This document shows, piece after piece, positions 1,966 through 57,275 of a stretch of DNA of 64,000 bases. A program made the translations under genes and the position numbers. This stretch comes from Oceanidesulfovibrio marinus (GTDB lineage: Bacteria; Desulfobacterota; Desulfovibrionia; Desulfovibrionales; Desulfovibrionaceae): NCBI RefSeq assembly GCF_013085545.1, contig NZ_CP039543.1, positions 2,945,322 to 3,009,321 of the forward strand. The letters are read 5' to 3'. The notes beneath the pieces were generated by a model. That model saw nothing but the letters and a program-made list of their open reading frames with translations. It was not told the DNA's origin and ran no database searches. Every line of letters starts with the position of its first letter. Position 1 is the stretch's first letter.

Positions 1966-3366
1966 ATGCGCCTGGCAGAGACCGACGTCCTCGTGCTTGG
2001 CGCCGGTCTGGCCGGCCTGAGCGCCGCCCGGTCTGTCCTCGCCGCCACCTCTCTCTCCCATACGCCGCTCCGCGTGACCGTGGCCTGGTCCAGCCCCGGC
2101 CCTGCCGGCTCCTCATTCGCCAACCACAACAACGGTTGGGGCCTGCTCGCCCCGGACGATGACGCCTCCCGAGAAGAGGTCGTCGCCCGCGCCGTGCGGA
2201 TCGCCTCCCCCGGCTTCATCGACCCGCGCCTTGTCACCATCCTTGCCGAGGAAGCGGCGGACCGCCGCCGTGAGCTGGAGCCCCTGGGCATCCTTCCACT
2301 GAAACGCACGAGCCGCGTCTGCTTCGCCCCGGAGCTGCGCGCATACGTTTATCGCGATGCACGGGCCGTTTTCCGCGCCCTGGCCGGCCACGTCGCTTCC
2401 TGCGGCGGCGAGCTGTTGGAGGGTGTCGAGGCTGTCCGCCTCATTACCTTGGACAACGCCGTGCGCGGCGCTTTGCTCGTGGACAATGCGGGCGAACCCG
2501 TGCTCTGCGCGACGCGCGCCGTGGTCTGCGCTTTGGGCGGACCGGCCCCGCTCCTACCACACCACGTGGCCGGCGGCGGCAATCCCGGTACATCCCCGGC
2601 CCTGCTCGCCCAGGTTGGCGTGTCGCTGGTGAATACGGCGTATTTGCAATGGATGTGGCACGACGTGGAGGGCGGGCAGTTTGTTCGCATTGACCGTTTG
2701 CCCTGGGGAACAGCGCAGGACGGGGCCGCGGCGCTACCACCCGGAGACCTGAGGCTGCTCCAGGCGCGGGGCGACCACTTTCCTCGCAGCTATGACCTCC
2801 CGGACGAAGCGCTGGACCTGGCGCTGGGCCGGCTGGCCGTTGCCGATCCGGACGGGGCTGTGTCCGTACGCAACGAGGACGGCGCAGTTCTTCGCATTCG
2901 GCCGCATGCCCATGCCGCCAACGGCGGCGCGCGCATCGACGAGCACGGCCGCACCTCGGTGAACGGGCTCTGGGTTTGCGGCGAGTGCGCCGGCGGTATG
3001 CACGGCGCCAACCGCCTGGGTGGAGCCATGATCGCAGCCTGCCTGGTCTTTGGCCGCCGCGCCGGCATGGATGCGGCAACCTGCGCCGCGGAAACGCCGA
3101 CTCCGAATCGAGGTATGCTTGTGGAAGCGGCCACGGCCTGGATGGCGGACGCAAAGCGCTCCGCAGAACAACACGGCCCGCGGCTGGACCCGCACCGCGC
3201 GGCCAGGGCGCTGTTTTTGCGCGATGGAGGCGACGCCCGCGCCATGCTGCAGGAACTGGGCGCATTGTCCCTGCACAAATCCGAGCCTGAGGACGATCCC
3301 CAGGGGCAGTTGCTCACCTGCCTCGCCAAGACGCGGGTTCAGGAAGCCATCGTCCGCCGGACCTGA
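1966..3366 (+). CDS. FAD-binding flavoprotein of the fumarate reductase / L-aspartate oxidase type
   Basis: 466 residues. The N-terminus carries a Rossmann dinucleotide motif (VLVLGAGLAGLSAARSV, about residues 9-25), followed by the SSFANHNNGWG block in the place where NadB/FrdA/SdhA proteins bind FAD. Near residues 330-360 the second FAD block is present (GLWVCGECAGGMHGANRLGGA), strongly typical of this superfamily. Substrate-binding histidine and arginine candidates lie around HAHAANGGARIDEHG. It is shorter than NadB (~530) or SdhA (~590), and no iron-sulfur or cytochrome subunit is adjacent, so it may be a stand-alone oxidoreductase. The substrate cannot be assigned. It ends 227 bases before the tRNA promoter. 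Confidence 0.8.
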   Translation: MRLAETDVLVLGAGLAGLSAARSVLAATSLSHTPLRVTVAWSSPGPAGSSFANHNNGWGLLAPDDDASREEVVARAVRIASPGFIDPRLVTILAEEAADRRRELEPLGILPLKRTSRVCFAPELRAYVYRDARAVFRALAGHVASCGGELLEGVEAVRLITLDNAVRGALLVDNAGEPVLCATRAVVCALGGPAPLLPHHVAGGGNPGTSPALLAQVGVSLVNTAYLQWMWHDVEGGQFVRIDRLPWGTAQDGAAALPPGDLRLLQARGDHFPRSYDLPDEALDLALGRLAVADPDGAVSVRNEDGAVLRIRPHAHAANGGARIDEHGRTSVNGLWVCGECAGGMHGANRLGGAMIAACLVFGRRAGMDAATCAAETPTPNRGMLVEAATAWMADAKRSAEQHGPRLDPHRAARALFLRDGGDARAMLQELGALSLHKSEPEDDPQGQLLTCLAKTRVQEAIVRRT

Positions 3367-3592
3367 CGCGTGACCGCCCGCCCTGCCCGGCGACATCTCT
3401 GTAGAACCGCGCCCACACCCTGGCCGCAACGCGCCCGCTCTGGACGTTGTCCACGAACCGCCGGCAGGCCTGCAAAGTTCCGAACGGCCGGGAATGGTGG
3501 AGACCAGTGCCTGGAGCTGTGATAACGGCAAGTCTGGGCAGACGCCGCCCTGGAGCGGCGCAAAATTATCGGACAGAAATCACCGCGAGGTG

Positions 3593-3621
3593 TTGACAGC
3601 CACCCGCAGCTTGGATAAGTA
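3593..3621 (+). promoter_or_regulatory. Sigma70-type promoter of tRNA-Pro
   Basis: A perfect -35 box TTGACA (3593-3598) is followed after 17 bases by TAAGTA (3616-3621). This ends 14 bases before the tRNA, the expected distance for a tRNA promoter. The -10 box is a partial match to consensus. Confidence 0.6.
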
Positions 3622-3635
3622 TTCCCTCCTTGCGT

Positions 3636-3712
3636 CGGGATGTAGCGCAGTCTGGGAGCGCACCTGAATGGGGTTCAGGGGGCCGGAGGTTCAAATCCTC
3701 TCATCCCGACCA
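3636..3712 (+). tRNA. tRNA-Pro, anticodon GGG
   Basis: 77-base cloverleaf with encoded CCA. The acceptor stem CGGGATG pairs with CATCCCG. The anticodon stem CCTGA/TCAGG encloses the loop ATGGGGT, giving anticodon GGG, which reads CCC/CCU proline codons. The T-arm GGAGG-TTCAAAT-CCTCT is present. Overall sequence follows the bacterial tRNA-Pro pattern. The 3' end of such genes is a common integration target, and mobile-element debris starts within 160 bases. Confidence 0.95.
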
Positions 3713-3721
3713 GATATTTCG

Positions 3722-3752
3722 AGGGCTTACCGTTAATTCGGTAGGCCCTTTT
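3722..3752 (+). terminator. Rho-independent terminator after tRNA-Pro
   Basis: Stem AGGGCTTACCG (3722-3732) pairs with CGGTAGGCCCT (3739-3749) with one G-U pair and a 6-base loop. It is followed by a T-rich tail. It lies 9 bases after the CCA end. Confidence 0.85.
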
Positions 3753-3787
3753 TCTTTGCTGCACCACACGATTGCACCACAAACGGC

Positions 3788-3877
3788 CTAGCGGCGCTCC
3801 TTGATGTTGACCACTTTCCGGTCCTGCTTGGGCTCGGGTTCGGCCTCCGGCAGCCGGAGCATGAGCTCGAGGGCGCG
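3788..3877 (-). pseudogene. C-terminal gene fragment, origin uncertain
   Basis: On the minus strand a charged C-terminal stretch (LELMLRLPEAEPEPKQDRK, then VVNIKERR and a stop) reads out from the edge of an IS481-type relic toward the tRNA. The upstream part of the gene has been replaced by relic sequence. Position and orientation would suit the tail of a tRNA-associated integrase, but no catalytic residues remain, so that is a guess. Confidence 0.25.
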
Positions 3878-3992
3878 GGCTGCGACATGGATGGCCGAGC
3901 GCCTTCCCAAGCATTCCTGGGCGGTATCGTAACCGACGAGGCCGGGGCAGAATGGCAGGAGAAACAGCAGAACCGCCAACCAACAAGAGGCG

Positions 3993-3997
3993 GAGTG
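3993..3997. repeat. Target-site duplication GAGTG, left copy (partner 5309-5313)
   Basis: GAGTG occurs immediately outside both termini of the IS3-family element. The intact IS481 copies contain a single GAGTG at this point, which shows which bases were duplicated. Confidence 0.85.
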
Positions 3998-4011
3998 TGG
4001 TGTTGCCCCCG

Positions 4012-4854
4012 CTAAATCGGACACTCGGCTGTTGCCATAGAGCGGATGAACTCGCGAGGAGATTTCATCCGCAACCCCTTGTGGGGATGCCTCTCGTTGT
4101 AATCTTCGATCCAGTCCGCCAGCTGTCCGAACACCGTCACGGCATCCGGCCTGTCGCTTATGCGCACGTAATCACGCTTGAACGTGTTCACGAACGCTTC
4201 GGCAATGCCGTTGCTCTCCGGGCTCCTGACGGGCGTGAACCGGCTCTCCAGGCCCAGCCACGAGGCGAACTCCACCGTGTCTTTCGCCGTGTAGCATGAG
4301 CCGTTGTCCGAAAGCCATTGCACCGGGCGGGGAGTTCGATTTGTCCCGAACCGCTTCTCGACGCACTCCAGCATCAGGTCCTGGATCATCGAGCTGGAAA
4401 TGCCCCGGCTCGACGCCATATGGCCGATGACTTCCCTGTCGCAGCAATCAATGGCGAACGCCACCCTGACCGCCTCGCCATTGGCGCAGGACACTTCGAA
4501 GACGTCGGAACTCCAGCGCAGGTTGCTGCGCAGCGTAATTACCTTGCCGTCATGGGCGCGCGTCGGCCGCTTGCCGGAATGCCGCGTCAGCAGAAGTCCA
4601 TGAAGGCGCATGATGCGGTAAACGCGTTTGTGATTCACGCGAGGCTGGCCCAACTCAACCAGGCGTCGATTGAGCACGGCGCAAACCCGCCTGTAGCCGT
4701 ACGTGAGACGATCGTCGATGATGTCGCGAATGAGCGGCAGCAGCGCTTCATCTTCTGCCTTGGAATAGCGAGGCGGCCTCACCTTTGGCTGGGCGCCGAC
4801 GCGCTCCACAAGCCTGGACCGGGAAACGCCCATGGCGTCTGCAACGCGCGTCAT
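4012..4854 (-). CDS. IS3-family transposase OrfB (DDE integrase domain)
   Basis: 280 residues with the rve integrase core that catalyses strand transfer. Acidic triad candidates: D in RWSSDVFEV, D in WLSDNGSCYTA, and E in SNGIAEAFVNTFKRDYV. The C-terminal YNERHPHKGL block is typical of the IS2/IS3 group. The ATG overlaps the orfA stop (ATGA). The frame is also open upstream of this ATG back to the slippery A-run in orfA, so the functional product is probably an OrfAB fusion made by -1 frameshifting. No internal stops. Confidence 0.93.
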   Translation of the reverse strand: MTRVADAMGVSRSRLVERVGAQPKVRPPRYSKAEDEALLPLIRDIIDDRLTYGYRRVCAVLNRRLVELGQPRVNHKRVYRIMRLHGLLLTRHSGKRPTRAHDGKVITLRSNLRWSSDVFEVSCANGEAVRVAFAIDCCDREVIGHMASSRGISSSMIQDLMLECVEKRFGTNRTPRPVQWLSDNGSCYTAKDTVEFASWLGLESRFTPVRSPESNGIAEAFVNTFKRDYVRISDRPDAVTVFGQLADWIEDYNERHPHKGLRMKSPREFIRSMATAECPI

Positions 4855-7463: not shown

Positions 7464-8396
7464 TTACCGGGCCTCGCTTTCCGTATACCACGCATACGCT
7501 TGGGCCAGTCCCTCCCGCAGATCAATACCGGCCTTCCAGCCGATGGATGTAAGCTTGCTCACATCCAGCAGCTTGCGTGGTGTTCCGTCCGGTTTTTCAA
7601 CGTCAAACTGGATGTCGCCTTCGAATCCGACAACCTCGGCAACAAGACGGGCCAGTTCGCCTATGGTGATATCCTGGCCCACGCCGATATTGACCAGCTC
7701 TTCCCCGTCATAGTTTCGCATCAGATAGACGCAGGCGTCGGCAAGGTCGTCGACGTGCAGAAACTCGCGGCGGGGCTGACCGGTTCCCCAAACCGAGACC
7801 GTGGCGGCACCGGCAACCTTCGCCTCATGAAACTTACGAATCAACGCCGGGACCACATGTGAAGTCTGCAGATCGAAGTTGTCCTCGGGTCCGTATAAAT
7901 TAGTGGGCATCACGCTGATGGCATTGAAGCCATATTGCCGTCTGTACGCGGCGCACATTTTCAAACCCGCGATCTTGGCGATGGCGTAGCACTCGTTGGT
8001 GGGTTCCAGCGGCCCAGTCAGCAAACAGTTCTCAGGCATGGGCTGCGGTGCAAGCTTGGGATAGATACACGAAGAGCCGAGGAAGAGGAGCTTCTTGACG
8101 CCGTTGCGATACGCGGCATCAATGATGTTCGTTTGAATCTGCAGGTTATCGCGTATGAAGTCTGCCGGATACGTATCATTGGCAACAATGCCGCCCACCT
8201 TTGCCGCAGCCAGAAACACATAGGCCGGCTTATGCTCGGCAAAAAAGGCATTCACAGCGGCCTGGTTGCGCAGATCCAGCTCGCTGCTACGGCGCAGCAG
8301 CAGGTTCGTGCAACCGTCCTTTGCCAACCGCCGCACCAGCGCAGAGCCTACGAGACCGCGGTGACCGGCGATATATATGACATCGTTTTTCTGCAT
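7464..8396 (-). CDS. fcl: GDP-L-fucose synthase
   Basis: Final step of GDP-L-fucose synthesis: epimerises and reduces GDP-4-keto-6-deoxymannose with NADPH in the cytoplasm. 310 residues from the chosen start. N-terminal SDR nucleotide motif [10 protein letters not shown] (residues 11-20). The active-site block FLGSSCIYP and the YxxxK pair YAIAK are present, along with family signatures AAAKVGGI and [10 protein letters not shown] chose the ATG at 8396 because a longer frame starting at 8432 would run into the gmd 3' end, and a purine-rich GGGTGGGA precedes this ATG. It follows gmd by 17 bases in the operon manB-manC-gmd-fcl. Confidence 0.95.
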
Positions 8397-8413
8397 CTGA
8401 GCATCCCACCCTA

Positions 8414-9502
8414 TTATTCCTGAGGCAGACATACCTCATAGCCGTTGCGCCTGCACAGATCTTCGCGCTTGGCCACGAGATAATCCTCCTGCACCATCTC
8501 CTGCACGAGTTCGCGGAACGTCACTTCGGGAGTCCACCCCAGCTCATTCTTTGCTTGGGATGGATCGCCGAGAAGCGTCTCCACTTCGGTGGGTCTGTAA
8601 TATTTCGGATCCACCGCCACGATGACCTTGCCACTGGACGCATCGCGGCCGACCTCTTTCTCGTTCTTGCCTTCCCACTCGATCTTCATGTCCAACTCGG
8701 CGGCGGCAACCTCGACAAACTCGCGCACCGAGTGTTGCTCCCCGGTCGCGATGACGTAATCCCGGGGCGCATCCTGCTGCAGCATCAACCACTGCATCTT
8801 CACATAGTCCTTGGCATGTCCCCAGTCGCGCAAGGCGTCCAGGTTGCCCAGGTACATCTTGTCCATCAGGCCGAGCTTGATCCTGGTCAACGCGCGGGTG
8901 ATTTTACGCGTCACAAAGGTCTCCCCGCGCACCGGAGATTCATGGTTGAACAAGATGCCATTACATACGAACATATTATAAGCTTCGCGGTAGTTTACAC
9001 AAATCCAGTACGAATACAGCTTGGCAACCGCGTACGGCGAGCGAGGATAGAAGGGTGTGCTCTCGGTCTGCGGAGTCTCCTGGACCAGACCGTACAGCTC
9101 GGAGGTGGACGCCTGGTAGAATCGAGTCGATTTTTCCAGGCCGGCGATTCGGATAGCCTCAAGCAAGCGCAAGGTTCCCAGGGCCGTGACATCCGCCGTA
9201 TACTCCGGGCACTCGAAGGACACCGCCACATGGCTTTGGGCTGCGAGGTTATACACTTCGTCCGGTTTCACCTGCTGTATTATGCGGATGAGATTCGAGG
9301 AGTCAGTAAGATCGCCATAGTGCAGGTAAAAACGTTTGTTCTCCGCGTGAGGGCCTTCATAGACATCATCGATACGGTCCGTATTGAACAACGAAGCACG
9401 ACGCTTGATGCCGTGCACCTCATATCCCTTATCAAGCAGAAGCCTGACAAGATATGATCCATCCTGCCCGGTGACACCCGTTATCAGAGCTACTTTCTTC
9501 AT
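8414..9502 (-). CDS. gmd: GDP-mannose 4,6-dehydratase
   Basis: Converts GDP-D-mannose to GDP-4-keto-6-deoxy-D-mannose, the precursor of GDP-fucose, GDP-rhamnose and GDP-perosamine. 362 residues, near the usual length. Extended SDR motif [10 protein letters not shown] at residues 9-18, followed by the Gmd-specific [15 protein letters not shown]. Also YAVAK with the catalytic tyrosine and the [16 protein letters not shown] block. The ATG overlaps the manC stop by 4 bases (ATGA), so the two are translationally coupled. Next gene fcl, 17 bases on, completes the route to GDP-fucose. Confidence 0.97.
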
Positions 9503-46196: not shown

Positions 46197-47405
46197 TGTA
46201 CAGAGATAGTATTCACCTGACACTCCGCCCCTGGCGGGGTGATGGCTACGCTGCTTCTTCTTTTTCTACCTCTGCTTCGTCGATTACGATGCCGTCCAGG
46301 AACGCTTGGTAGGGCACTCGGCCGTCCATGCCGCGGCCCTGATGGGTGCGTTCCCGGTTGTAGTGGTTCAGGTAACTGTCCAGATCCTCTTGCATTTCCT
46401 CCACCGATTCGTACCACTTCTCGCGGCCCTTGATGCGGAAATGCTCGTCGAGCAATGTCCGATGCAACCGCTCCACAAAGCCGTTGCTCTGCGGCCGGCG
46501 AACCTGCGTTGTCCGGTGCTCAATCCCTTCTAATTGCAAGAACAATTCGTACGGATGCTTGTCCGGGCGACCGCAGAACTCGCGACCGTTGTCCGAGAGA
46601 ATCGTCGAAATGCGCGCGATGTGCTCCTCGAAGAACGGCAGCACGTCCTCATTGAGCACGTGAACCGCGGTAACCGGCAACTTGGTGGTGTAGAGTCGGC
46701 CCCAGGCATAGCGGCTGTGGCAGTCGATAACCGACTGCAAATACACGCGTCCAACGCCCTTGAGCGTGCCCACGAAGAAGGTGTCCACGGCCACGAGGTC
46801 GCCGGTGTGACGCGTCTCGATGTGCCGGTCGCGAAACTCGGGACTGAAGCGCTCCAGGACGCGGATTTGTTCGTCCGAGAGCTCCAAACGCTGCTCTCGC
46901 ACGCTCTTCTCCAGCCGCAGCAACCGCTCGTGGCGTGTGAGCAAGCCGTGCCGGCTCCAGACGCCGCGGACACCGCCGGAGCTGACCTGGACGCCTTGCA
47001 GGACAAGCTGTTGGGCGACGCGGAGCGGCCCGTGCGTGGGGTGAGCCAAGCAGTAGTCGAGGATGGCCTGCTCGACAGCCTCGTCGACGCGGTTGGGGTG
47101 CGGGCCTCGCGGCCCGGGCAGGCGGTCCAATAGACCTTCGGCGCCGAAGGTCTGGTAGTTGCGCCGGATCTCGTAGAACTGCTGCCTGGAATAGCCCATG
47201 ATTTTGCACGCTTTGCTGACGTTGCCCAATTCAGTGGCCAGCTCTAGCAGACTCATCTTCCTTCGTGCTACTTTGCGTTTCGTGGTCATGGCGTTCTCCT
47301 CGAAAGGGTTCGTGAAGCTTCGCAACTCCATCGATACCCAGCCAGGGACGGCATGACCACAACCTTTTGGTGGCCCAGGTGTCAGGTTATATCCATCTCA
47401 GTTCA
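46197..47405 (-). mobile_element. IS481-family insertion sequence, copy 1
   Basis: 1209 bp with terminal inverted repeats TGTACAGAGATAGTATTCAC... at the 46197 end and TGAACTGAGATGGATATAAC... at the 47405 end, about 20 of 27 positions identical. It carries one transposase gene on the minus strand. It is the inverted twin of copy 2 (47995-49203), with equal length and an identical protein. No matching direct repeats flank it as it stands; see the target duplications. Confidence 0.92.
46246..47331 (-). CDS. IS481-family transposase, copy 1
   Basis: 361 residues. N-terminal helix-turn-helix (MSLLELATELGNVSKACKIM, then GYSRQQFYEIRR) for terminal repeat recognition. rve integrase domain with acidic residues in VAVDTFFVGTLKG, ILSDNGREFCG and SNGFVERLHRTLLDEHF, giving a complete DDE triad. 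The C-terminal YNRERTHQGRGMDGRVPYQA block is typical. Identical in protein sequence to the copy at 48069-49154. No frameshift needed. Likely functional. Confidence 0.94.
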   Translation of the reverse strand: MELRSFTNPFEENAMTTKRKVARRKMSLLELATELGNVSKACKIMGYSRQQFYEIRRNYQTFGAEGLLDRLPGPRGPHPNRVDEAVEQAILDYCLAHPTHGPLRVAQQLVLQGVQVSSGGVRGVWSRHGLLTRHERLLRLEKSVREQRLELSDEQIRVLERFSPEFRDRHIETRHTGDLVAVDTFFVGTLKGVGRVYLQSVIDCHSRYAWGRLYTTKLPVTAVHVLNEDVLPFFEEHIARISTILSDNGREFCGRPDKHPYELFLQLEGIEHRTTQVRRPQSNGFVERLHRTLLDEHFRIKGREKWYESVEEMQEDLDSYLNHYNRERTHQGRGMDGRVPYQAFLDGIVIDEAEVEKEEAA

Positions 47406-47412: not shown

Positions 47413-47987
47413 TCATGCTCCTGGTGGGAGATGGCTACGCTGCTTCTCAATTGTTTCTGCCCCTGTCTCGTCGACGTCGATTACGATGTCATCCAGGAAT
47501 GCTTGATAGGGCACACTGGGTCATGCCGTGGTCCTTGATGCGGAAATGCTCATCGAGCAACCTCCGGGGCACCATTCCGCAAAACCGCTGCTCTGCGATC
47601 TGCATTGTCCGGTGCGCAATACACTCTAATTGCAAGGACAATACATACAGATGTTGGTCCAGCCGACCTCGGAGTTCGCGATCGTTGCCCAAAAGGATCG
47701 TGGAGATGCACACGAACAGCAGCACGTCTTCATCGAACACGTGGACCGTGGTCACGGGCAGCTTGGGTGGTGTAGAGCCGGCTCAGGCATAGCGGTTGTG
47801 GAACTGTAGATACACATCCAACGCCCTTGGGCGTGTCCGCGAAGAAGGTGCCCAAGGGCATCACGCCGGTGTGGCGTGTCTCAATGTGCGCCGGTCCGAG
47901 GAACTTTTGGGGCTCAAGTACGCCAGGAGGCGGATTTGCTCGCACGGGAACTCATGCCAGTCTTCTACTTTTAATAAGGAAGGGTCA

Positions 47988-47994: not shown

Positions 47995-49203
47995 TGAACT
48001 GAGATGGATATAACCTGACACCTGGGCCACCAAAAGGTTGTGGTCATGCCGTCCCTGGCTGGGTATCGATGGAGTTGCGAAGCTTCACGAACCCTTTCGA
48101 GGAGAACGCCATGACCACGAAACGCAAAGTAGCACGAAGGAAGATGAGTCTGCTAGAGCTGGCCACTGAATTGGGCAACGTCAGCAAAGCGTGCAAAATC
48201 ATGGGCTATTCCAGGCAGCAGTTCTACGAGATCCGGCGCAACTACCAGACCTTCGGCGCCGAAGGTCTATTGGACCGCCTGCCCGGGCCGCGAGGCCCGC
48301 ACCCCAACCGCGTCGACGAGGCTGTCGAGCAGGCCATCCTCGACTACTGCTTGGCTCACCCCACGCACGGGCCGCTCCGCGTCGCCCAACAGCTTGTCCT
48401 GCAAGGCGTCCAGGTCAGCTCCGGCGGTGTCCGCGGCGTCTGGAGCCGGCACGGCTTGCTCACACGCCACGAGCGGTTGCTGCGGCTGGAGAAGAGCGTG
48501 CGAGAGCAGCGTTTGGAGCTCTCGGACGAACAAATCCGCGTCCTGGAGCGCTTCAGTCCCGAGTTTCGCGACCGGCACATCGAGACGCGTCACACCGGCG
48601 ACCTCGTGGCCGTGGACACCTTCTTCGTGGGCACGCTCAAGGGCGTTGGACGCGTGTATTTGCAGTCGGTTATCGACTGCCACAGCCGCTATGCCTGGGG
48701 CCGACTCTACACCACCAAGTTGCCGGTTACCGCGGTTCACGTGCTCAATGAGGACGTGCTGCCGTTCTTCGAGGAGCACATCGCGCGCATTTCGACGATT
48801 CTCTCGGACAACGGTCGCGAGTTCTGCGGTCGCCCGGACAAGCATCCGTACGAATTGTTCTTGCAATTAGAAGGGATTGAGCACCGGACAACGCAGGTTC
48901 GCCGGCCGCAGAGCAACGGCTTTGTGGAGCGGTTGCATCGGACATTGCTCGACGAGCATTTCCGCATCAAGGGCCGCGAGAAGTGGTACGAATCGGTGGA
49001 GGAAATGCAAGAGGATCTGGACAGTTACCTGAACCACTACAACCGGGAACGCACCCATCAGGGCCGCGGCATGGACGGCCGAGTGCCCTACCAAGCGTTC
49101 CTGGACGGCATCGTAATCGACGAAGCAGAGGTAGAAAAAGAAGAAGCAGCGTAGCCATCACCCCGCCAGGGGCGGAGTGTCAGGTGAATACTATCTCTGT
49201 ACA
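47995..49203 (+). mobile_element. IS481-family insertion sequence, copy 2
   Basis: 1209 bp, ends TGAACTGAGATGG... (47995) and ...CTCTGTACA (49203). It is the same element as copy 1 but on the opposite strand; stretches compared by eye are identical. It is followed by AATATTA and the residual terminus of the decayed copy. Confidence 0.92.
48069..49154 (+). CDS. IS481-family transposase, copy 2
   Basis: 361 residues, amino-acid identical to the transposase at 46246-47331, so the two copies split recently or are kept alike by gene conversion. The DDE core is complete (see copy 1). The ATG is followed by the short leader MELRSFTNPFEENAMTTKRK; an ATG 14 codons in (MTTKRK), preceded by GGAGAACGCC, is a credible alternative start. 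Confidence 0.94.
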   Translation: MELRSFTNPFEENAMTTKRKVARRKMSLLELATELGNVSKACKIMGYSRQQFYEIRRNYQTFGAEGLLDRLPGPRGPHPNRVDEAVEQAILDYCLAHPTHGPLRVAQQLVLQGVQVSSGGVRGVWSRHGLLTRHERLLRLEKSVREQRLELSDEQIRVLERFSPEFRDRHIETRHTGDLVAVDTFFVGTLKGVGRVYLQSVIDCHSRYAWGRLYTTKLPVTAVHVLNEDVLPFFEEHIARISTILSDNGREFCGRPDKHPYELFLQLEGIEHRTTQVRRPQSNGFVERLHRTLLDEHFRIKGREKWYESVEEMQEDLDSYLNHYNRERTHQGRGMDGRVPYQAFLDGIVIDEAEVEKEEAA

Positions 49204-49210
49204 AATATTA
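49204..49210. repeat. 7-bp repeat AATATTA beside IS481 copy 2 (partner 47406-47412)
   Basis: Directly follows the copy 2 terminus and continues TCTCTGAACA, the end of the decayed copy's right inverted repeat. Confidence 0.78.
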
Positions 49211-49256
49211 TCTCTGAACAACCCCCTCTCACAGGTTTGATTCGCTGATCAAGTAC

Positions 49257-49979
49257 CTAATTCTTATAGTGCAGATCTATTGCGCCGTCTGCAATTTGAG
49301 TCAATGTATCCACGTCTACGACGACAGATGATCGGCCTGATTTCTTGATAATATTGTCTCTGCGGAGTGCTTTGAATATCTTCGCAACAGTTATTTCATG
49401 CATTGATAGATAGAACGCTATTTCTGTATATGTGAGAAACCGTGGAATCACAGGCTCCTCATCGTCAGACATAAAGTCCAGAATAACCTGACACACACGC
49501 GCCGATGCCGACTTCGAAACAATCTCGGTCGATAAAGCAAGCAAGTTGACCATATTTTCTGTGAGGGACCGCACAAGAATCATATACAATGCAGGGTTCT
49601 TCTCGAGATAGTCCAGAAACACTTCACCCGGAATACAAATAAATCTGCATCGTGTCTTGGTGTATATTGTATGGTTTATCTTAGAGAACCGCCTCCGTGT
49701 GATGTCTATCTCCAATCCTGTTGTATGAATCAATATAGGGAGGAAATTTAAAAGCATTCCCTGCTTGAAGAATATATACGAACTCTCCTCCCCTGAAGGC
49801 GTTAAATATGTCAGCGCCGACACCCCCTCGATCAAATAATAAATATTCTCCGAAGGAAGCCTCGTCCCCTTTGGAATCACCACCTCTTTTCCAATTTTTT
49901 TCAGATGCTTTTCGTATATTTCGAATTGCCTGCTGGACACTTCGCGACGCCCCCTGCTCCCCCACGATATTTTTTTCAC
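49257..49979 (-). CDS. Crp/Fnr-family transcription regulator
   Basis: 240 residues. N-terminal cyclic-nucleotide-binding-type beta barrel (~residues 20-140; IPKGTRLPSENIYYLIEGVS, then FFKQGMLLNFLPIL), a dimerisation helix (~140-165), and a C-terminal winged helix FLTYTEIAFYLSMHEITVAK with KSGRSSVVVD. No N-terminal cysteine cluster like FNR was seen, so oxygen sensing by an iron-sulfur cluster is unlikely. Family members sense cAMP, haem, aryl compounds or redox. It is divergent from the permease operon (98 bases between starts), so it probably controls that operon and itself. The inducer is unknown. Confidence 0.88.
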   Translation of the reverse strand: MKKISWGSRGRREVSSRQFEIYEKHLKKIGKEVVIPKGTRLPSENIYYLIEGVSALTYLTPSGEESSYIFFKQGMLLNFLPILIHTTGLEIDITRRRFSKINHTIYTKTRCRFICIPGEVFLDYLEKNPALYMILVRSLTENMVNLLALSTEIVSKSASARVCQVILDFMSDDEEPVIPRFLTYTEIAFYLSMHEITVAKIFKALRRDNIIKKSGRSSVVVDVDTLTQIADGAIDLHYKN

Positions 49980-50077
49980 AAAGTTAGTCTGGGCTACTTT
50001 TTTCCTTCCGGGAATCTGGGAAACACAAATTGCTAGCTACAAAGGCGCCTACTCCAAAATAAAGCGTAGGTCGAGTT
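49980..50077. promoter_or_regulatory. Divergent promoter region, regulator versus permease operon
   Basis: 98 bases between the starts of the Crp/Fnr gene and the permease gene. An imperfect palindrome with arms TTG (50030-50032) and CAA (50040-50042) could be an operator, but it is weak. No consensus FNR or CRP box was recognised. Confidence 0.35.
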
Positions 50078-51616
50078 ATGAAAGTATTTGGCAGGTGGGA
50101 ATTTAATAGCATAGGGCTGCTCAACACCCTTGTTGGCATCAGTATCATGCTGTTCGGGCGCTTCGCGCCACCGCCGTCGATAGTGGTGCCGGCATCGGAA
50201 AAACTGCTCAACCTTGGCTTGCCCCAGGTCGATGGCGGCGTCCTGCTGTCCATCACGCCCATGGGCATGGCCATGATCTCGCTGTTCGTCGGGGTCGTTT
50301 ACCTCTGGACCGCGGTAGACACCCTGTGGCCCAGCTTCTTGGGCGTCTTGCTGCTGGGGATGAGCGGCTATATGTCCATGCCCCAGGTCTTGGGAAAGTT
50401 CATGGGCAACCCCATGGTTGTCATGATCTTTTTCCTGTTCATCTTCGCCGCTGTTCTGATCAAGAGCAACCTGTCCGCGTACCTGGCGCACTGGTTCATG
50501 ACGCGCAAGATAGTGCAAGGCAAGCCCTGGGCGTTTACCGGAACCATACTGCTTGCAACGTATTGCGTCGCCTTCTTTGAGCAGACATCGGCCTGCTTCC
50601 TGATGTGGCCCGCGCTGTACATCATCTTCGACCATGCGGGCTTCAAGAAGGGGGACAAGTACGTCAGCGTGATGATCGTCTATACAATGGTCATGGCGCT
50701 GCTGTGCTTTGCCACTGACCCTGTAAAAGGCGGTGCATTTTACTTGTTGTCCAACATGGACAACCTGGCCGCCTCGTCGTCGGACATCGCCATTGTACCG
50801 ATCAACTACGCCAAGTACCTCTTCTTTGGCGTGTGCGTCTCATTGGTATGTATTGCGGCCATGCTCTTTGCCATGCGCTTCATATTCAGGATCGATGTTT
50901 CTCCCATCAAGAACATCAATATGGCGGAGATTGAAAAAGACGAACTGCCGCCCATGTCGATTCAACAAAAGATCATCATTCTTTTGTTCGTGTTCTATGC
51001 AGCCTGGCTGCTGCTCCCCGGCATAATAGGCCGCGACAATATCATAGGTGACTTCCTGGCAAAGAATGCGCTGGGCGGCACCCTGCTCGTCACCTTTATC
51101 CTGTCGTTCGTTCACATTGGCAAGAAGCCGATCGCGGACATTGTGGAGACAAACTCGGCGTATCCATGGCGGACACTCTTCCTCATCGCCACGGCGTTCC
51201 TTCTGGGCGGCTCCATGACGGGCCAGGGAACCAACGTCACGCTATTCATGGAATACCTGCTCCGCGACTATCTGTCCGGCCTGAATGGCGTAATGCTCAC
51301 CGTTGCGGTGATCGTCATTGGCATTCTGGTTACCAACTTCTTCAACTCCGTTGTGGCTGGCCTTGTGCTCACTCCGGTTCTGTTGGCCATCTGCCAGGCC
51401 TTCCAGCTGGACGCCTCACCGGTCATCGTCTGCTTTTTCTACATTGTACTGGTCGCTGCAGCCACACCAGCCGCATCGCCATTTGCCGCTATTCTCTATG
51501 ACAACACGCAATGGGTGGCCAAAAAGGATGTCGCATTCCATGCCGCTTTGGCTTCCGCCATTGTCGTATGTGTTCTCATTGTAGCAGGAATCCCATTAGC
51601 TCGATTCCTGTTCTGA
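50078..51616 (+). CDS. SLC13/DASS-like anion permease
   Basis: 512 residues with about 12 hydrophobic membrane segments. The overall layout, hairpin loops and C-terminal VAAATPAASPFAAILYDNT resemble the divalent anion:sodium symporter / ion-transporter superfamily, which imports dicarboxylates, sulfate and organic anions. It begins the operon with thioredoxin reductase, thioredoxin and arylsulfotransferase, so import of a sulfate ester or related organic anion is a reasonable inference. Substrate-binding signature SNT/TPN motifs are not canonical, so this is probably a divergent branch. It is 14 bases upstream of trxB. Confidence 0.75.
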   Translation: MKVFGRWEFNSIGLLNTLVGISIMLFGRFAPPPSIVVPASEKLLNLGLPQVDGGVLLSITPMGMAMISLFVGVVYLWTAVDTLWPSFLGVLLLGMSGYMSMPQVLGKFMGNPMVVMIFFLFIFAAVLIKSNLSAYLAHWFMTRKIVQGKPWAFTGTILLATYCVAFFEQTSACFLMWPALYIIFDHAGFKKGDKYVSVMIVYTMVMALLCFATDPVKGGAFYLLSNMDNLAASSSDIAIVPINYAKYLFFGVCVSLVCIAAMLFAMRFIFRIDVSPIKNINMAEIEKDELPPMSIQQKIIILLFVFYAAWLLLPGIIGRDNIIGDFLAKNALGGTLLVTFILSFVHIGKKPIADIVETNSAYPWRTLFLIATAFLLGGSMTGQGTNVTLFMEYLLRDYLSGLNGVMLTVAVIVIGILVTNFFNSVVAGLVLTPVLLAICQAFQLDASPVIVCFFYIVLVAAATPAASPFAAILYDNTQWVAKKDVAFHAALASAIVVCVLIVAGIPLARFLF

Positions 51617-51630
51617 TTCTGGAGGTACTT

Positions 51631-52566
51631 ATGAGTCCTATATCCCATTATGACGTCATTATTATTGGCTCAGGCCCCGCAGGATTGACTGCATCCATCT
51701 ATGCAGCCCGAGCCAACATGAAGGTCTTGCTTCTGGACAAGCTCGCTCCCGGCGGCCAGATGATCAACACCAACGAGATCGAAAACTACACCGGGTATGG
51801 CGCAATCAACGGTGCAGAGCTCAGCATAAAGATGTTCGACCACACCCAATCACTTGGGGTCGAGTTCGATTACAAGACGGTCCTTTCCATTGAAGATAAA
51901 GGCGAGACTAAAGTCATTACCTGCGAAGAGGACGACGCCGTCTACCACGCCACGGCCGTAATCCTGGCTACCGGCACCGTGCCCCGCCGGCTCGGCATTC
52001 CGGGCGAAGAGAAGTTCGCCGGCGGCGGCATCAGCTGGTGCGCCATCTGCGACGGCGCACAGTACAGGGGCAAGGACGTCGTCGTCATCGGCGGTGGTAA
52101 CTCCGCCGTGGAAGAGTCCATTTATCTCGCCGGGATAACCAACGCGCTCACCATCGTCACCCTGTTCGACCTGACAGCCGATCCCAAGGCCTGCGACCGC
52201 CTTTGCGCAATGGAGAACGTCACGATCTATCCATACCAAGATGTCCTGGAGTTCACAGGCGAAGACAAGCTCACGGGTGTCCGGTTCAAGTCCACCAAGG
52301 AAGACGCCACCGAGCGGTACGTCACGTGTGATGGTGTTTTTGAATACATCGGCCTGCAACCGACGTCGAAGTTCTTCGCCAGTCTTGGCATTCTGGACAA
52401 GTTCGGATGCATCATCGTCGACGATGAGATGAAGACATCCGTTCCCGGTGTATTCGGCGCTGGCGACATCACAGCAAAGAAACTGCGCCAGGTTATCACC
52501 GCCTGCTCCGACGGAGCCATCGCAGCCAACTCCGCAGCAAAATACGTTGAGTCTTTGCGCGGTTAA
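51631..52566 (+). CDS. Thioredoxin reductase-like flavoprotein, atypical pyridine-nucleotide site
   Basis: 311 residues; ATG 51631 has GGAGG 6 bases upstream. FAD motif IIGSGPAGLTASIYAARA (11-28). Redox-active pair CAIC (Cys137/Cys140) in the usual place. NAD(P)H domain with VIGGGNSAVEESIYLAG. In classical NADPH-dependent enzymes, HRRxxxR follows and holds the 2'-phosphate. Here that stretch is TLFDLTADPKACDR, with no arginines, so NADPH is probably not the donor. It precedes a thioredoxin gene by 15 bases and should reduce that thioredoxin. Donor may be NADH or another reductant. Confidence 0.9.
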   Translation: MSPISHYDVIIIGSGPAGLTASIYAARANMKVLLLDKLAPGGQMINTNEIENYTGYGAINGAELSIKMFDHTQSLGVEFDYKTVLSIEDKGETKVITCEEDDAVYHATAVILATGTVPRRLGIPGEEKFAGGGISWCAICDGAQYRGKDVVVIGGGNSAVEESIYLAGITNALTIVTLFDLTADPKACDRLCAMENVTIYPYQDVLEFTGEDKLTGVRFKSTKEDATERYVTCDGVFEYIGLQPTSKFFASLGILDKFGCIIVDDEMKTSVPGVFGAGDITAKKLRQVITACSDGAIAANSAAKYVESLRG

Positions 52567-52581
52567 TATTGGAGGTTCACT

Positions 52582-52893
52582 ATGATCAAAGAAGTCAACA
52601 CCCAGGAATACGACGCGCTGGACAAGTCCGGCGTCATGCTTGTCGAGTTTTACTCCAAGACATGCGGCCCCTGTAAGATGCTCGCTTTTGTGCTCAAGGA
52701 CATCGACAAGAATATGTCGGACTTTCCCATATATACAGTCGATTTCGATGAGAACCAGGAGCTCAAGGAGCGGTGTGGCGTCAAAGGCTTCCCCACCATG
52801 CTTTTCATGAAAGACGGCGAGGAAGTGAGTCGCCTGGAAGGCCTGAAACAAAAGCCCGCAATCATCAAGGAAATTGAGAAACTGAACGCTTAA
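52582..52893 (+). CDS. Thioredoxin
   Basis: 103 residues, cytosolic. The redox site is CGPC at residues 28-31 with Thr before it instead of the usual Trp (KTCGPCK). The cis-proline loop GFPT (about residue 72) and the fold-defining segments LVEFYS and PTMLFMKDGEEVSRLEG are present. GGAGG lies just upstream. It sits between its reductase (15 bases) and the sulfotransferase gene (11 bases), implying a dedicated partner. It may keep cysteines of the sulfotransferase or of a sulfur-handling enzyme reduced. Confidence 0.94.
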   Translation: MIKEVNTQEYDALDKSGVMLVEFYSKTCGPCKMLAFVLKDIDKNMSDFPIYTVDFDENQELKERCGVKGFPTMLFMKDGEEVSRLEGLKQKPAIIKEIEKLNA

Positions 52894-52904
52894 CGGGAGA
52901 GATC

Positions 52905-54785
52905 ATGAGCAATAAAGTCACATACACCTGCGAAGAGCACCTGATTACACAGCAGAACCGGGCGGAAGCGACATTTCTCAAAGCGTTTGAGGAAGCCAGA
53001 CCTGGGCTGGACGATGCGCACGTCATCGTGAACCCGTACCTGATCAACCCGTTGAGCGCCCTGATCCTGTTCAATACCGAAGCGGAGACCGAAGTTACCC
53101 TGACGGTGCACGGCAAGCGTTACGCCCGGGAAGACATCACCCACACCTTCACAAAGGCCACGACCCACATCATCCCTGTACTAGGCCTGTACGAGAACCA
53201 CGACACCAGGGTGACGGTGGCACTTTCCAACGGACAGAGCAGGATCTTCACGATAACGAGCGAGCCGCTGCCGGAAGATGTCTGCCGCTGCCTTAACATC
53301 CAGACATCCATGGACTACTTCGGCAACGACTTCATGTTCCTCACCCCGGCGGGCAAGAACCTGCCAACGGCCTATGACTACCGCGGCAACATCCGCTGGC
53401 TGCTCACCATCAACACCATGTTTGATATCAAGCGGTTGGCCAACGGCAACATAATGACCGGCTCGCATCGCTTCTGCCGCATGCCGTACAACGCCACCGG
53501 CCTTGTGGAGCTCAGCCTGCTGGGCAAGATTTACAAAGAGTTTCGCATGCCCGGCAACTACCACCACGACCACTTCGAGATGGAGGACGGCAACATCCTG
53601 GCGCTGACCCAGGACTTCACCACCGACACCGTGGAAGACATGATCGCCCTGCTGGATCGTGAGACTGGCGAAGTGCTCCGCACCTGGGACTACAAGGATT
53701 TCCTGCCCCAGGACGTGGCCGGTTCCGGCTCCCAGGACGCCCACGACTGGTTCCACAACAATGCCCTGTGGTACGACAAGCGCAACAACACCATCACCAT
53801 TTCCGGCCGCCACCAGGACGCCGTGGTCAACTTCGACTACGATACCAGCAAGCTGAACTGGATCCTCGGCGATCCGGAAGGCTGGCCCCAGGAAATGGTG
53901 GACAAGTACTTTTTCACCCCTGTGGGCGATGTGGAGAACTTCGACTGGCAGTACGAGCAGCACGCCTGCGTGGTGTGCCCGGACGGCGACATCATGATGT
54001 TCGACAACGGCCAGTACCGCGCCAAGTCCAAGGAGAAGTACATCAAGAACCAGGACAACTTCTCCCGCGGCGTGCGCTACCGCATCGACACCGAGAAGAT
54101 GGAGATCGAGCAGGTCTGGCAGTACGGCAAGGAGCTCGGCCAGGAGTTCTTCTCCCCGTACATTTGCAACGTGGAGTACTACGACGAGGGCCATTACATG
54201 GTCCACTCCGGCGGCATCGGCCGCGAAAATGGCTATGCCTCGGACAGCCTCGGCGCCTTCCTGGACATGAAGGCCCCCGGCGTGGAGCTCCGTTCCATCA
54301 CGGTGGAAGAAAAAGACGGCGTTGTGCTGTACGAGATGGAGGTGGAAGGCAACTTCTACCGCGCCGAGAAGCTGCCCCCCTACCATGACGGCGAGAACAT
54401 CGCCTTTGGCGAAGGAAAGCTCGTGGGTCAGCTGGATGTAACGCCCACCTTTGACACCATCCCGGACGTGAAAGAGGTGGACGAGCTTACGCCTGTGGAG
54501 CGCCAGATCGTCATCGAGGAAGACGAAGACCGCTTCGTGTTCCACGGCCTGTTCGAGCGCGGCTCCCTGGCCATGGTGGTGCTGCAGGGTGAAGAAGAGA
54601 CCCGCGGCTACTTCCTGAACACCGCCGCGACGCATCATCTGGCCATGTGCTCCGGTGCCTTCCTGGAAGATGACGACCGCATGCTCAAGATCAACATCAG
54701 CAAAAACGGCCTTGCCGGCAAGTACGACATCAAAGTCATTGTTGATGACGCAATGTACCAGACCGGTGTTACCATCTACTGCTAG
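52905..54785 (+). CDS. Cytosolic aryl-sulfate sulfotransferase
   Basis: 626 residues with no signal peptide, unlike the periplasmic E. coli AssT. N-terminal beta-sandwich domain (~1-125), then a six-bladed propeller (~130-450) and a ~170-residue C-terminal part. AssT transfers sulfate from an aryl sulfate to a phenolic acceptor through a sulfohistidine. Candidate equivalents of its catalytic residues are all present: His220/221/223 (NYHHDH), His284 (DWFHNN), Arg302/His303 (SGRHQ) and His353 (YEQHACV), the last most likely the sulfohistidine. Last gene of the operon; an inverted-repeat stem follows. Substrates unknown; a phenolic sulfate is likely. Confidence 0.88.
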   Translation: MSNKVTYTCEEHLITQQNRAEATFLKAFEEARPGLDDAHVIVNPYLINPLSALILFNTEAETEVTLTVHGKRYAREDITHTFTKATTHIIPVLGLYENHDTRVTVALSNGQSRIFTITSEPLPEDVCRCLNIQTSMDYFGNDFMFLTPAGKNLPTAYDYRGNIRWLLTINTMFDIKRLANGNIMTGSHRFCRMPYNATGLVELSLLGKIYKEFRMPGNYHHDHFEMEDGNILALTQDFTTDTVEDMIALLDRETGEVLRTWDYKDFLPQDVAGSGSQDAHDWFHNNALWYDKRNNTITISGRHQDAVVNFDYDTSKLNWILGDPEGWPQEMVDKYFFTPVGDVENFDWQYEQHACVVCPDGDIMMFDNGQYRAKSKEKYIKNQDNFSRGVRYRIDTEKMEIEQVWQYGKELGQEFFSPYICNVEYYDEGHYMVHSGGIGRENGYASDSLGAFLDMKAPGVELRSITVEEKDGVVLYEMEVEGNFYRAEKLPPYHDGENIAFGEGKLVGQLDVTPTFDTIPDVKEVDELTPVERQIVIEEDEDRFVFHGLFERGSLAMVVLQGEEETRGYFLNTAATHHLAMCSGAFLEDDDRMLKINISKNGLAGKYDIKVIVDDAMYQTGVTIYC

Positions 54786-54795
54786 TTGAACAGCA

Positions 54796-54834
54796 AAACG
54801 TGGCGCGGCATTGCGTAGACGCCGCGCCACGTTT
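54796..54834 (+). terminator. Perfect hairpin after the arylsulfotransferase gene
   Basis: AAACGTGGCGCGGC (54796-54809) pairs perfectly with GCCGCGCCACGTTT (54821-54834) over 14 bp with an 11-base loop. The tail is TTTG rather than a long T-run, so termination is probably partial, and the SDR gene 17 bases on may be reached by read-through. Confidence 0.65.
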
Positions 54835-54851
54835 GTCTCTGGAGGCATCAA

Positions 54852-55604
54852 ATGGATCTGAATCTGTCAGGCAAGGTGGCGCTGGTTACCGGAGCCGCAC
54901 GAGGGATTGGCGAAGGCATCGCATCGCGCTTTATTGCAGAAGGCGCCAAAGTCGCCGTCGCAGATGTGGATGAAATACGCGCCCAACGCACACTGGAGCA
55001 TCTCGGCCCGCAGAGCATGTTCGTCAGGATGGACGTCACCAACGAACAAAGCGTGCAGGACGCCGTGGATACGGTGACCGACGCGTACGGCCAGATCGAT
55101 ATCCTGGTCAACAACGCAGGCGTCAGCACGCGTATCAGCCTTGCGAACATGACCTATGACGACTTCGATTACGTGTTCAAGGTCAACACGTATGGCACGT
55201 TCCTGGTCACGCGGGCTGTCATTCCGCAAATGATCGAGCGGAAGCACGGCAAAATCGTGAACATTGCGGCCATGGTCGGCGCTTCACCCATGCAGACCTT
55301 CTCCCACTACAGCGCGTCCAAAGCTGCGGTCATCGCCTTTACCAAAGCCGTTGCCATGGAGCACGCCGAGTACGACCTGAACATCAACTGCGTCTGCCCC
55401 GGCGGCGTGGACACCCGCCTGTGGTCAAAGGACAACCTGCAGGTCAAAGGCGGCACGGACATCATCAACTTCAAAGCCGACATCGAACAGCGGTTCTCGC
55501 TGGGCCGGGCGCAGAAGATCGAAGATATCGCAAACATGGTCTGCTATCTTTCCTCCGACCTCACGCAGAACATCTCCGGCCAGAACTTCTTTGTTACAAG
55601 CTGA
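54852..55604 (+). CDS. Short-chain dehydrogenase/reductase
   Basis: 250 residues. Classical SDR: TGAARGIGEG cofactor loop (residues 14-23), NNAG stabilising motif, and active-site Ser...YSASK with the catalytic tyrosine and lysine. The Asp after beta-2 (VADVD) favours NAD over NADP. The C-terminus ends GQNFFVTS instead of the common G-x-DGG end, so the substrate pocket may be altered. GGAGG precedes the ATG. It lies 66 bases after the sulfotransferase gene, across a hairpin, and may be the final gene of that operon. Substrate not predictable: a secondary alcohol or sugar. Confidence 0.9.
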   Translation: MDLNLSGKVALVTGAARGIGEGIASRFIAEGAKVAVADVDEIRAQRTLEHLGPQSMFVRMDVTNEQSVQDAVDTVTDAYGQIDILVNNAGVSTRISLANMTYDDFDYVFKVNTYGTFLVTRAVIPQMIERKHGKIVNIAAMVGASPMQTFSHYSASKAAVIAFTKAVAMEHAEYDLNINCVCPGGVDTRLWSKDNLQVKGGTDIINFKADIEQRFSLGRAQKIEDIANMVCYLSSDLTQNISGQNFFVTS

Positions 55605-55964
55605 CACCCCACACCGCTCGAACCACACCGCCCGGGCGCTTCAAAGACAGTCCTGGCGGTGCCCGGCGCGTGGTGGCGGTGGTTTTATTTTCTGCTCACC
55701 TTTGTTGAGGCGGATTCCAGGGGCCTGTCGCGGCAGGACCAGTGAGCACGCCATGTATGGTAGTATGGTAGTGCGGCCGGGAAGGGGGGCTTCCCGGCCG
55801 CATCCAGCATATGCACCCGTTTCCATGGCAGGACGGAGGGGCTCTGATGGGTGCTGCTGTTCCACATTGTACTGCCGCCGTTGCGACGGACCGCGCCCGC
55901 AGTCAGACACGCGGGCCGGCAGGCCGTTTACGGAGCAATCGGCAGGAGAGTGCAACCAGCGAGG
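55605..55964. other. Convergent intergenic region with hairpin
   Basis: About 360 bases between the rightward SDR gene and the leftward malic enzyme gene. It contains a strong GC hairpin: TGCGGCCGGGAAG (55772-55784) pairs with CTTCCCGGCCGCA (55790-55802), loop GGGGG, without a T-tract. It may act as a bidirectional transcript end. No gene recognised. Confidence 0.6.
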
Positions 55965-57275
55965 CTAGCGATAGCTCTCGACAAAGCTCTTGATCCGTTT
56001 TCCGGAAGCCTCCATACGCTCACGCAGGCTCACGGCGTAGCCCTTGAGATCGTCAATGGGCGCTTTGGCCACCCCCGAACGCATGGCCGCTTCGGCAACC
56101 GCAGGCGTCTCCCACTCCAGCACGCGGGGATCAAGGGGCTTTGGAATAACGTAATCCAGGCCAAAGGACATTTCCTTCACGCTGTAGGCATCGCAAATTT
56201 CACTCGGCACCGGCTCCTTGGCCAGATCGGCCAGGGCCCTGGCGGCAGCCACCTTCATCTCCTCATTGATTTCAGTGGCCTGTACGTCGAGCGCACCGCG
56301 GAAGATGTACGGGAATCCGGAGACGTTGTTGACCTGGTTGGGGAAATCCGTGCGGCCGGTGCCCATGATGCACTCGGGGTTGGCGCCCTTGGCGTCGGCG
56401 TAGCTGATCTCCGGGTCCGGGTTGGCCATGGCGAAGATGATGGGGTTGTGCGCCATGCTGCGCACCATGTCCTGCGTCACGAGATCCTTTCTCGATAATC
56501 CCAGGAATACGTCCGCGCCTTTCATGCACTCCGCCAGGCTGGCTTCCTTGTTCTGGGCAAAGAGGACCTTGTACGGGTTCAGCCCGCCCCTGCCCTGGTA
56601 AATCAACCCCTTGGAATCGAACATATAAATATTCTCATTGGCGATTCCCAGAGAGACGTAGAACTTGGCGCAGGCGATGCCTGCCGCGCCGGCGCCGACA
56701 ATCACCACCTTCATATTTTCCATTTTCTTGCCGGAAATCTCGGCGGCGTTCAGCAACCCTGCTCCGGATATGACGGCCGTGCCATGCTGGTCGTCGTGGA
56801 ACACCGGGATGTTCATCTCGTCCTTGAGGACCTCCTCGATGTAAAAACATCCAGGCGCCTTTATGTCCTCCAGGTTGATGCCCCCGAACGTCGGCTCCAG
56901 GGCCTTGACCACGTCGATAAGCTGATCCGCATTGCGCACGTCCAGGTTGAGGTCGAAGACGTCGATGTCGGCAAAGTTCTTGAACAGCACGCCCTTGCCT
57001 TCCATCACCGGCTTGCCGGCCAGGGGTCCGATATTGCCCAGTCCCAGCACGGCCGAGCCGTCGGAGACCACGGCGACCAGGTTCGCCCTGCCGGTATAGA
57101 GCGCCGCTGCGGAAGGATCTTCGACAATGGCGTTGCACGCCTCGGCCACCCCTGGCGAGTAGGCCATGGACAGCTCTTTCTGGTTGCCGCACGGTTTGGT
57201 GGGGACCACTTCGATAATTCCCGGACGGGGGCTACGGCGATACTGCAGCGCTTCTTCTCGGGTATACAAGGCCAT
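55965..57275 (-). CDS. Malic enzyme (malate dehydrogenase, decarboxylating)
   Basis: 436 residues. Oxidatively decarboxylates malate to pyruvate and CO2 in the cytosol. The malic-enzyme N-domain has the catalytic tyrosine in [10 protein letters not shown], the lysine region [18 protein letters not shown] and metal-binding acidic residues in HDDQHGTAV. The NAD(P) domain has [16 protein letters not shown] and [11 protein letters not shown]. Length matches the short bacterial type; the phosphotransacetylase-like domain of MaeB is absent. Cofactor not certain. It lies 309 bases downstream of the HACD gene on the same strand. Confidence 0.94.

Follow-up and report, generated by a model that had tools for sequence, protein, structure and literature searches.

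In the reductases of 3′-phosphoadenosine 5′-phosphosulfate (PAPS) and adenosine 5′-phosphosulfate (APS), known as CysH, a sulfuryl group is carried on a cysteine and released as sulfite by thioredoxin. Among the arylsulfotransferases (ASTs), AssT from Escherichia coli is periplasmic, carries a signal peptide, needs a disulfide, and is encoded with DsbL/DsbI. According to the available text of a review from 2026 (PMC13426309), ASTs work by a ping-pong mechanism and form two clusters, of which Cluster I holds enzymes like that of E. coli and Cluster II those like the Desulfitobacterium hafniense enzyme; their physiological role is poorly understood, their natural substrates are unidentified, and so, mostly, are their natural acceptors. 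The same text presents Cluster II ASTs (D. hafniense, Desulfosporosinus, and Hungatella effluvii, whose enzyme has been expressed) as sulfating phenols and alcohols in vitro; it assigns them neither a physiological role nor a thioredoxin or sulfite reductase partner, and it contains neither the word thioredoxin nor the word sulfite. In Bilophila, as far as the available text of PMC8473560 describes it, an isethionate sulfite-lyase pathway likewise turns organic sulfur into sulfite for sulfite respiration, with a glycyl radical enzyme cleaving the C–S bond. Here, we report an operon in a 64,000-nucleotide stretch of the Oceanidesulfovibrio marinus genome (contig NZ_CP039543.1; the window) that encodes a permease, a thioredoxin reductase-like flavoprotein (TrxB), a thioredoxin (Trx), and an AST (AssT) of the same PF05935 family, with the same catalytic residues, as the Cluster II enzymes. 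We propose, with a probability of roughly 0.7, that this operon is a sulfate-ester reduction system in which sulfite would be released via thioredoxin and then reduced by the sulfite reductases Dsr or Asr.

The four genes lie on the forward strand, separated by 14, 15, and 11 nt. They encode a CitMHS/SLC13-like permease (50078..51616; CitMHS PF03600, 65.6 bits), a TrxB-like flavoprotein with a CAIC redox center (51631..52566; Pyr_redox_2 PF07992, 151.9 bits), a dedicated Trx with the motif TCGPCKM (52582..52893; Thioredoxin PF00085, 82.5 bits), and AssT, a PAPS-independent AST of 626 residues that is predicted to be cytosolic (52905..54785; Arylsulfotrans PF05935, 351.5 bits). The start of TrxB was placed at 51631 rather than at 51511, as in the list of open reading frames, because GGAGG lies just upstream and the starts of homologues fit. 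An earlier note, made from the sequence of the window, had described four tightly spaced genes with a divergent Crp/Fnr regulator; gaps of 11–15 nt and agreeing Pfam matches confirm this permease-TrxB-Trx-AssT layout as real. The recurrence of the gene set in many genomes and in several gene orders argues that it is more than a chance assembly.

The PF05935 score of AssT far exceeds the curated cut-off of 24.2 bits, which places it in the family, and Arylsulfotran_N is matched at 67.4 bits; AssT is predicted to transfer sulfuryl groups from aryl sulfates without PAPS. The Pfam scan returned Arylsulfotrans domains only, and no PAPS reductase domain was found in AssT. Alignment placed His252, His356, Arg374, and His436 of E. 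coli AssT at H221, H284, R302, and H353, and the equivalents of these four residues are kept in 78/78 members of the AssT clade. His353 (codon 53961..53963, forward strand) corresponds to the sulfated His436; in the alignment, this column holds the substituted residue of the H436N protein of structure entry 4p04. The AlphaFold2 model of AssT (predicted local distance difference test [pLDDT] score, 92.8) matched E. coli AssT (3elq) with a Z of 36.9 and a root-mean-square deviation (rmsd) of 2.7 over 435 residues, between model positions 26 and 497, and shows the predicted β-sandwich and six-bladed propeller fold.

E. coli AssT thus shares with the operon enzyme its fold, its His/Arg set, and an adjacent thiol-redox pair. 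It differs in being periplasmic and dependent on a disulfide, whereas AssT of O. marinus is predicted to be cytosolic and is accompanied by a reducing pair; no DsbA/DsbB-type neighbors were found by Pfam, in keeping with the contrast that the earlier note had drawn. No signal peptide was found in AssT or in its 78 clade relatives, a call based on a simple hydropathy scan and on frame length rather than on SignalP. The open frame spans 635 residues compared with 626 for the protein, and the highest 15-residue mean hydropathy within the first 50 residues was at most 1.16 among the 78 relatives, compared with 1.85–3.25 in ten distant PF05935 proteins scanned in the same way. The claim of a signal-less, cytosolic AssT was therefore upheld. 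The absence of a signal peptide is not new in itself, since ASTs occur with and without signal peptides in the available text of PMC10932419.

The operon AssT carries in addition a C-terminal domain (approximately residues 500–626; 54402..54782, forward strand) that is absent from E. coli AssT by alignment and structure comparison. The last 129 residues fall outside the structural alignment with 3elq, and at positions 500–626, the aligned residues number 10 in E. coli AssT, 1 in Aerococcus AssT, and 3 in Enterococcus AssT. Modeled in isolation, the domain forms a predicted Ig/fibronectin-like sandwich with generic sandwich matches only (best Z 7.4, rmsd 3.1, 88 residues), and a search of PDB sequences with this domain gave zero matches. 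Within it, Cys582 (codon 54648..54650, forward strand) is present in 69/69 aligned relatives and in 77/78 clade members, the last of which is truncated; on account of this invariance, we regard it as a candidate sulfuryl carrier. Residues 581–590 have a mean pLDDT of 82 in the whole protein compared with 54 in the isolated-domain block, which suggests that the Cys582 loop packs on the rest of AssT. In the available text of PMC13426309, a change of Val579 in the D. hafniense enzyme (DhAST) alters acceptor activity; going by protein length, Val579 may be close to Cys582, a guess that was not used.

A clade-specific domain with an invariant cysteine suggests a thiol on AssT itself. It is for this reason that we consider it unlikely that AssT passes the sulfuryl group to a small thiol (cysteine, CoA, or similar), with the Trx pair afterwards splitting the resulting S-sulfo compound reductively into thiol and sulfite, a scheme that the gene linkage fits equally well and that agrees with the broad acceptor ranges of ASTs in the available text of PMC13426309.

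The partner proteins depart from their best-known relatives. Trx has the Pfam Thioredoxin match and a CGPC center and scores below the TIGR01068 equivalog cut-off (76.1 versus 96.8 bits); its center reads S[KT]TCGPCKM in 45/49 AssT-linked Trx genes. TrxB scores below the TIGR01292 equivalog cut-off (321 versus 343.45 bits). Canonical thioredoxin reductases have the NADPH motif HRRxxxR. The form HRRxxFR is absent in 49/49 AssT-linked TrxB copies, 47 of which have an Asp at the matching place, which suggests that TrxB probably uses NADH rather than NADPH. The genome of the window, a single contig of 4.76 Mb, encodes three other TrxB-like proteins that contain HRRxxFR and also another thioredoxin.

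The earlier note had assigned the Trx pair to thiol control of AssT. Under such a scheme, cytosolic AssT would shuttle sulfuryl groups between phenols, and the pair would merely keep its cysteines reduced; the conserved cysteines of AssT (C582 in 77/78 clade members, and Cys at the C421 position in 69/78) and the in vitro sulfation of phenols by published relatives (available text of PMC13426309) are compatible with it. Against it speak the second thioredoxin and the further TrxB-like proteins of the genome, which contain the NADPH motif; it also leaves unexplained the asrABC genes found in the same gene run in Clostridia. We judge it quite improbable. These asrABC-continuing clusters, together with the dsrA or asrC genes of 56/66 carrier genomes described below, favor a role of the pair as reductant, and possibly as sulfuryl acceptor.

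Close relatives of this AssT are sparse in the family of the window's organism. Among 99 genomes (its own and 98 relatives), they occur in G036 (two copies) and G009, with a marginal 20-bit match in G040; the sole genome of the same genus lacks this AssT. A scan of genome contigs yielded 68 AssT loci, which span Desulfovibrionaceae, Desulfobulbales, other Desulfobacterota, and Desulfosporosinus as well as Hungatella, Niameybacter, Lachnospiraceae, Peptococcaceae, and Gracilibacteraceae. Neighbors were counted at the 63 loci with an AssT above 690 bits; L067, L073, L074, L076, and L077 were dropped for a short or broken AssT, and of these, L073 has both trxB and trxA. Trx is near AssT at 46/63 loci, TrxB at 45/63, and both at 44/63, which bears out the linkage of AssT to the TrxB/Trx pair that the earlier note had claimed along with the permease. 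At the 39 loci with long flanks, both trx genes were present 26 times, either 28 times, and neither 11 times. Across the 68 loci, the order trxB-trxA-AssT was seen 37 times, AssT-trxB-trxA five times, and trxA-AssT-trxB three times; in one of the latter, L046, the Trx is a distant one and the permease lies in between. The locus sets overlap in that L123 is L043 and L098 is L040.

The Desulfitobacteriaceae, in which the AssT clade was found in 18/45 genomes, offer a second arrangement. Of 39 places listed, 36 loci were examined; Trx is present at 25, and 21 of these also have a TrxB-like gene. The Trx centers are CHVC in 18 cases, CHIC in one, and CGPC in five, with one protein lacking CxxC, and 16/21 of the reductases are longer forms, of which two were scanned and both contain a thioredoxin domain. 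In a tree of AssT that includes the Desulfosporosinus and Hungatella proteins and leaves out E. coli AssT, the two kinds of dithiol partner go with different AssT subclades, which argues for a functional tie. Nine loci of distant PF05935 proteins in Lachnospirales served as a control; the same profiles gave no Trx, TrxB, or Asr gene in their vicinity.

Further neighbors were seen at single loci. Directly 5′ of AssT in a Desulfosporosinus locus (L043, 5564-5896) is a protein that has a thioredoxin fold and lacks a CxxC pair; a 281-residue AssT neighbor at L143, considered as glutaredoxin-like, had no Pfam match and was not counted. At L053 (Peptococcaceae), which lacks Trx, PF05935/PF14269 proteins of 481–506 residues flank AssT (3044-4564, 8026-9471), and major facilitator superfamily and metallo-β-lactamase-like genes are also present. 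In Aerococcus tenax (L145, CP127381.1, 3278-6491), a 491-residue AssT is annotated immediately behind genes for ascorbate-type IIC and IIB components of a phosphotransferase system, so that ascorbate sulfate or some sulfated sugar is perhaps used; profiles gave no Trx or Asr there.

The link to sulfite reduction is seen most directly in Clostridia. Ten loci carry permease-trxB-trxA-AssT-AssT-asrA-asrB-asrC in one run, and one more carries AssT-asrABC; the gene order is thus conserved in other genomes, and the lack of such conservation, which the earlier note had named as a refutation, was not observed. One of the ten, L088, derives from a separate whole-genome search. With the curated models for AsrABC (TIGR02910, TIGR02911, and TIGR02912), A, B, and C exceeded the cut-offs in L045, A and C in L088, and C in L049, L063, and L066; L063 has asrABC even though it lacks Trx. 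Calls at the remaining Clostridia loci rest on profiles built in this analysis. Asr genes were counted by profile; single-linkage clusters, in which AsrA/AsrB had been lumped together with different subunits (L047, L067, and L042), were discarded. L045 is a record of Hungatella effluvii, a species with three AST copies, an AST of which has been expressed (PMC13426309, available text). Downstream of the run in L088 are genes for glutamyl-tRNA reductase, siroheme synthase domains, hydroxymethylbilane synthase, and porphobilinogen synthase. At L047 (3-4990), AssT is preceded by genes whose products have HdrA-like Fe-S/FAD domains, resemble FlpD (MvhD), or are weakly AsrA/AsrB-like, and electrons may take a different route there.

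At the level of whole genomes, 66 carriers were considered: 62 from the 68-locus scan plus G000 (the genome of the window), G036, G009, and G478; L026, L042, L076, and L077 were not entered separately, as their accession prefixes match assemblies already in the set. The dsrA gene scored over the cut-off in 44/66 carriers (14/26 plus 30/40) and asrC in 12 others (11/20 plus G478), so that 56/66 have one or the other. Four more (G120, G555, G575, and G582) have a dsrA fragment that is below the cut-off or cut by a contig end. Within Lachnospirales, asrC occurs in 57/392 genomes, and all three carriers of the AssT clade are among those 57.

Could AssT act in effect as a sulfatase, with the freed sulfate joining ordinary sulfate reduction? 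The genome of the window and G036 have both dsrA and an ATP sulfurylase (TIGR00339) over the cut-off, which favors such a route. They are the only two of 20 carriers that do: TIGR00339 is absent in the other 18 (CysDN-type enzymes were not sought), in a set that leaves most clear sulfate reducers outside, and aprA scored over the cut-off in 7/20 genomes. Among these 18 carriers, one of which (G009) belongs to the window's own family, 17 have dsrA or asrC over the cut-off and G120 has a fragment. Moreover, the AST of Eubacterium A-44 does not hydrolyze its own donor (available text of PMC13426309), and the Trx pair would be left unexplained. We regard this explanation as very improbable.

In the sulfate-ester reduction that we propose, the permease would import an organic, probably aryl, sulfate, and cytosolic AssT would transfer its sulfuryl group to His353, freeing the phenol or alcohol. 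The group would then move to a thiol, which may be Cys582, a cysteine of the dedicated Trx, or one after the other; the Trx dithiol would displace it as sulfite and become oxidized to a disulfide, and the TrxB-like enzyme, probably NADH-linked, would restore the dithiol. Sulfite would be reduced to sulfide by DsrAB in the genome of the window and by cluster-encoded AsrABC in Clostridia, and the pathway would consume no ATP, APS, or PAPS. The argument that hydrolysis of a phenolic sulfate may release enough energy to cover an NADH-driven reduction to sulfite was not used. The analysis shows which genes are present and that they are conserved, and it establishes the catalytic residues of AssT, its predicted fold and cytosolic location, and the link to sulfite reductases; the electron donor and the substrate, along with the thiol acceptor and the formation of sulfite, are inferred. 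Thiol transfer and sulfite release are drawn by analogy from PAPS reductase, a likeness confined to the proposed chemistry: the fold is unrelated, and AssT would use an aryl sulfate donor and a sulfohistidine enzyme with no nucleotide. The Dsr/Asr stage rests on gene linkage. The Bilophila pathway differs in its C–S cleavage; here, S–O transfer from a sulfate ester and two electrons would be involved. A more specific form of the proposal, in which the sulfuryl group of sulfo-His353 passes to Cys582 and leaves as sulfite via the dedicated Trx, would amount to a new activity, organosulfate:thioredoxin reductase (sulfite-forming), and to an ATP-free phenolic sulfate route of anaerobes; we put it forward tentatively, at somewhat less than even odds.

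Several points weigh against the proposed pathway. A thiol acceptor for an AST or sulfite release by one is not on record in the literature searched, as far as its available text goes, and Cys582 could be structural instead. No Trx is nearby at 11/39 long-flank loci and 11/36 Desulfitobacteriaceae loci, which weakens the idea that every AssT depends on a dedicated pair; at these loci, a general thioredoxin might substitute. Six metagenome-assembled genomes (G559, G580, G584, G586, G587, and G593) gave no dsrA, asrC not having been sought in them. Desulfobacterota are expected to have a sulfite reductase in any case and Clostridia are not, so that the link is tested by Clostridia only, and there, two of the three Lachnospirales carriers came from the loci of this analysis and asrABC does not adjoin AssT in Niameybacter (G109). 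Finally, there are asrABC clusters of this subtype that lack an AssT (L090-L095), and the tie therefore runs from AssT to sulfite reductase and not the reverse. These AssT-less clusters are from Lachnospirales, and several have a divergent LysR gene.

The surroundings of the operon in the window hold further features. The divergent Crp/Fnr-type regulator (49257..49979, reverse strand) matches HTH_Crp_2 with 35.7 bits, over the Pfam cut-off, and cNMP_binding with 21.3 bits, under the cut-off of 27.5; a relative lies divergently on the permease side in L007, L015, L018, and nine asr-linked Clostridia loci. A possible, weak operator (TAG-N6-CTA, 49985..49996) was recognized by eye, without statistics, as were comparable stretches in the intergenic sequences that precede the permease in L007 and L018. 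Between AssT and the next gene is a strong hairpin (54796..54834, forward strand; −30.5 kcal/mol, z −3.53, 0/200 shuffles as good); a search of Rfam across 49150-56000 gave zero matches. The next gene encodes a dehydrogenase of the SDR family (54852..55604, forward strand; PF00106, 202.6 bits), possibly an accessory gene, with close relatives 3′ of AssT in L007, L015, and L018; most loci are without it. By the 3′ end of the regulator gene are two identical, inverted insertion sequence copies of 1209 bp each (46197-47405 and 47995-49203), whose reading frame carries an integrase core, and between them a decayed third copy (47475-47953; 76–95% match).

The AssT family is known, and its pathway role appears undescribed in the literature searched, which did not extend to subscription papers and preprints; none of the papers listed ties an AST to a sulfite reductase or a thioredoxin operon. 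PMC10932419 reports that the asst genes of one Sutterella strain are typically outside operons, PMC10866078 names arylsulfotransferase and asrAB separately and unlinked, and the terms sulfotransferase, sulfatase, and aryl are absent from PMC13232883, in each case in the available text. The suggestion in the earlier note that the layout is undescribed holds, within the literature searched, for the AST-thioredoxin operon link and fails for signal-less ASTs, which were already known.

Gene context thus turns the question of what ASTs do physiologically into a testable one. If the proposal is true, PAPS-independent sulfotransferases of anaerobes, long studied, would gain a physiological role, and genomes that have a sulfite reductase and lack ATP sulfurylase would gain a plausible source of sulfite. 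Sulfate esters would then be direct electron acceptors that need no activation by ATP, and anaerobes, gut species included, would have an ATP-free route from phenolic sulfate through sulfite to sulfide. Sulfated phenols such as indoxyl sulfate, a donor of the Eubacterium A-44 enzyme (available text of PMC13426309), could in this way feed gut sulfide.

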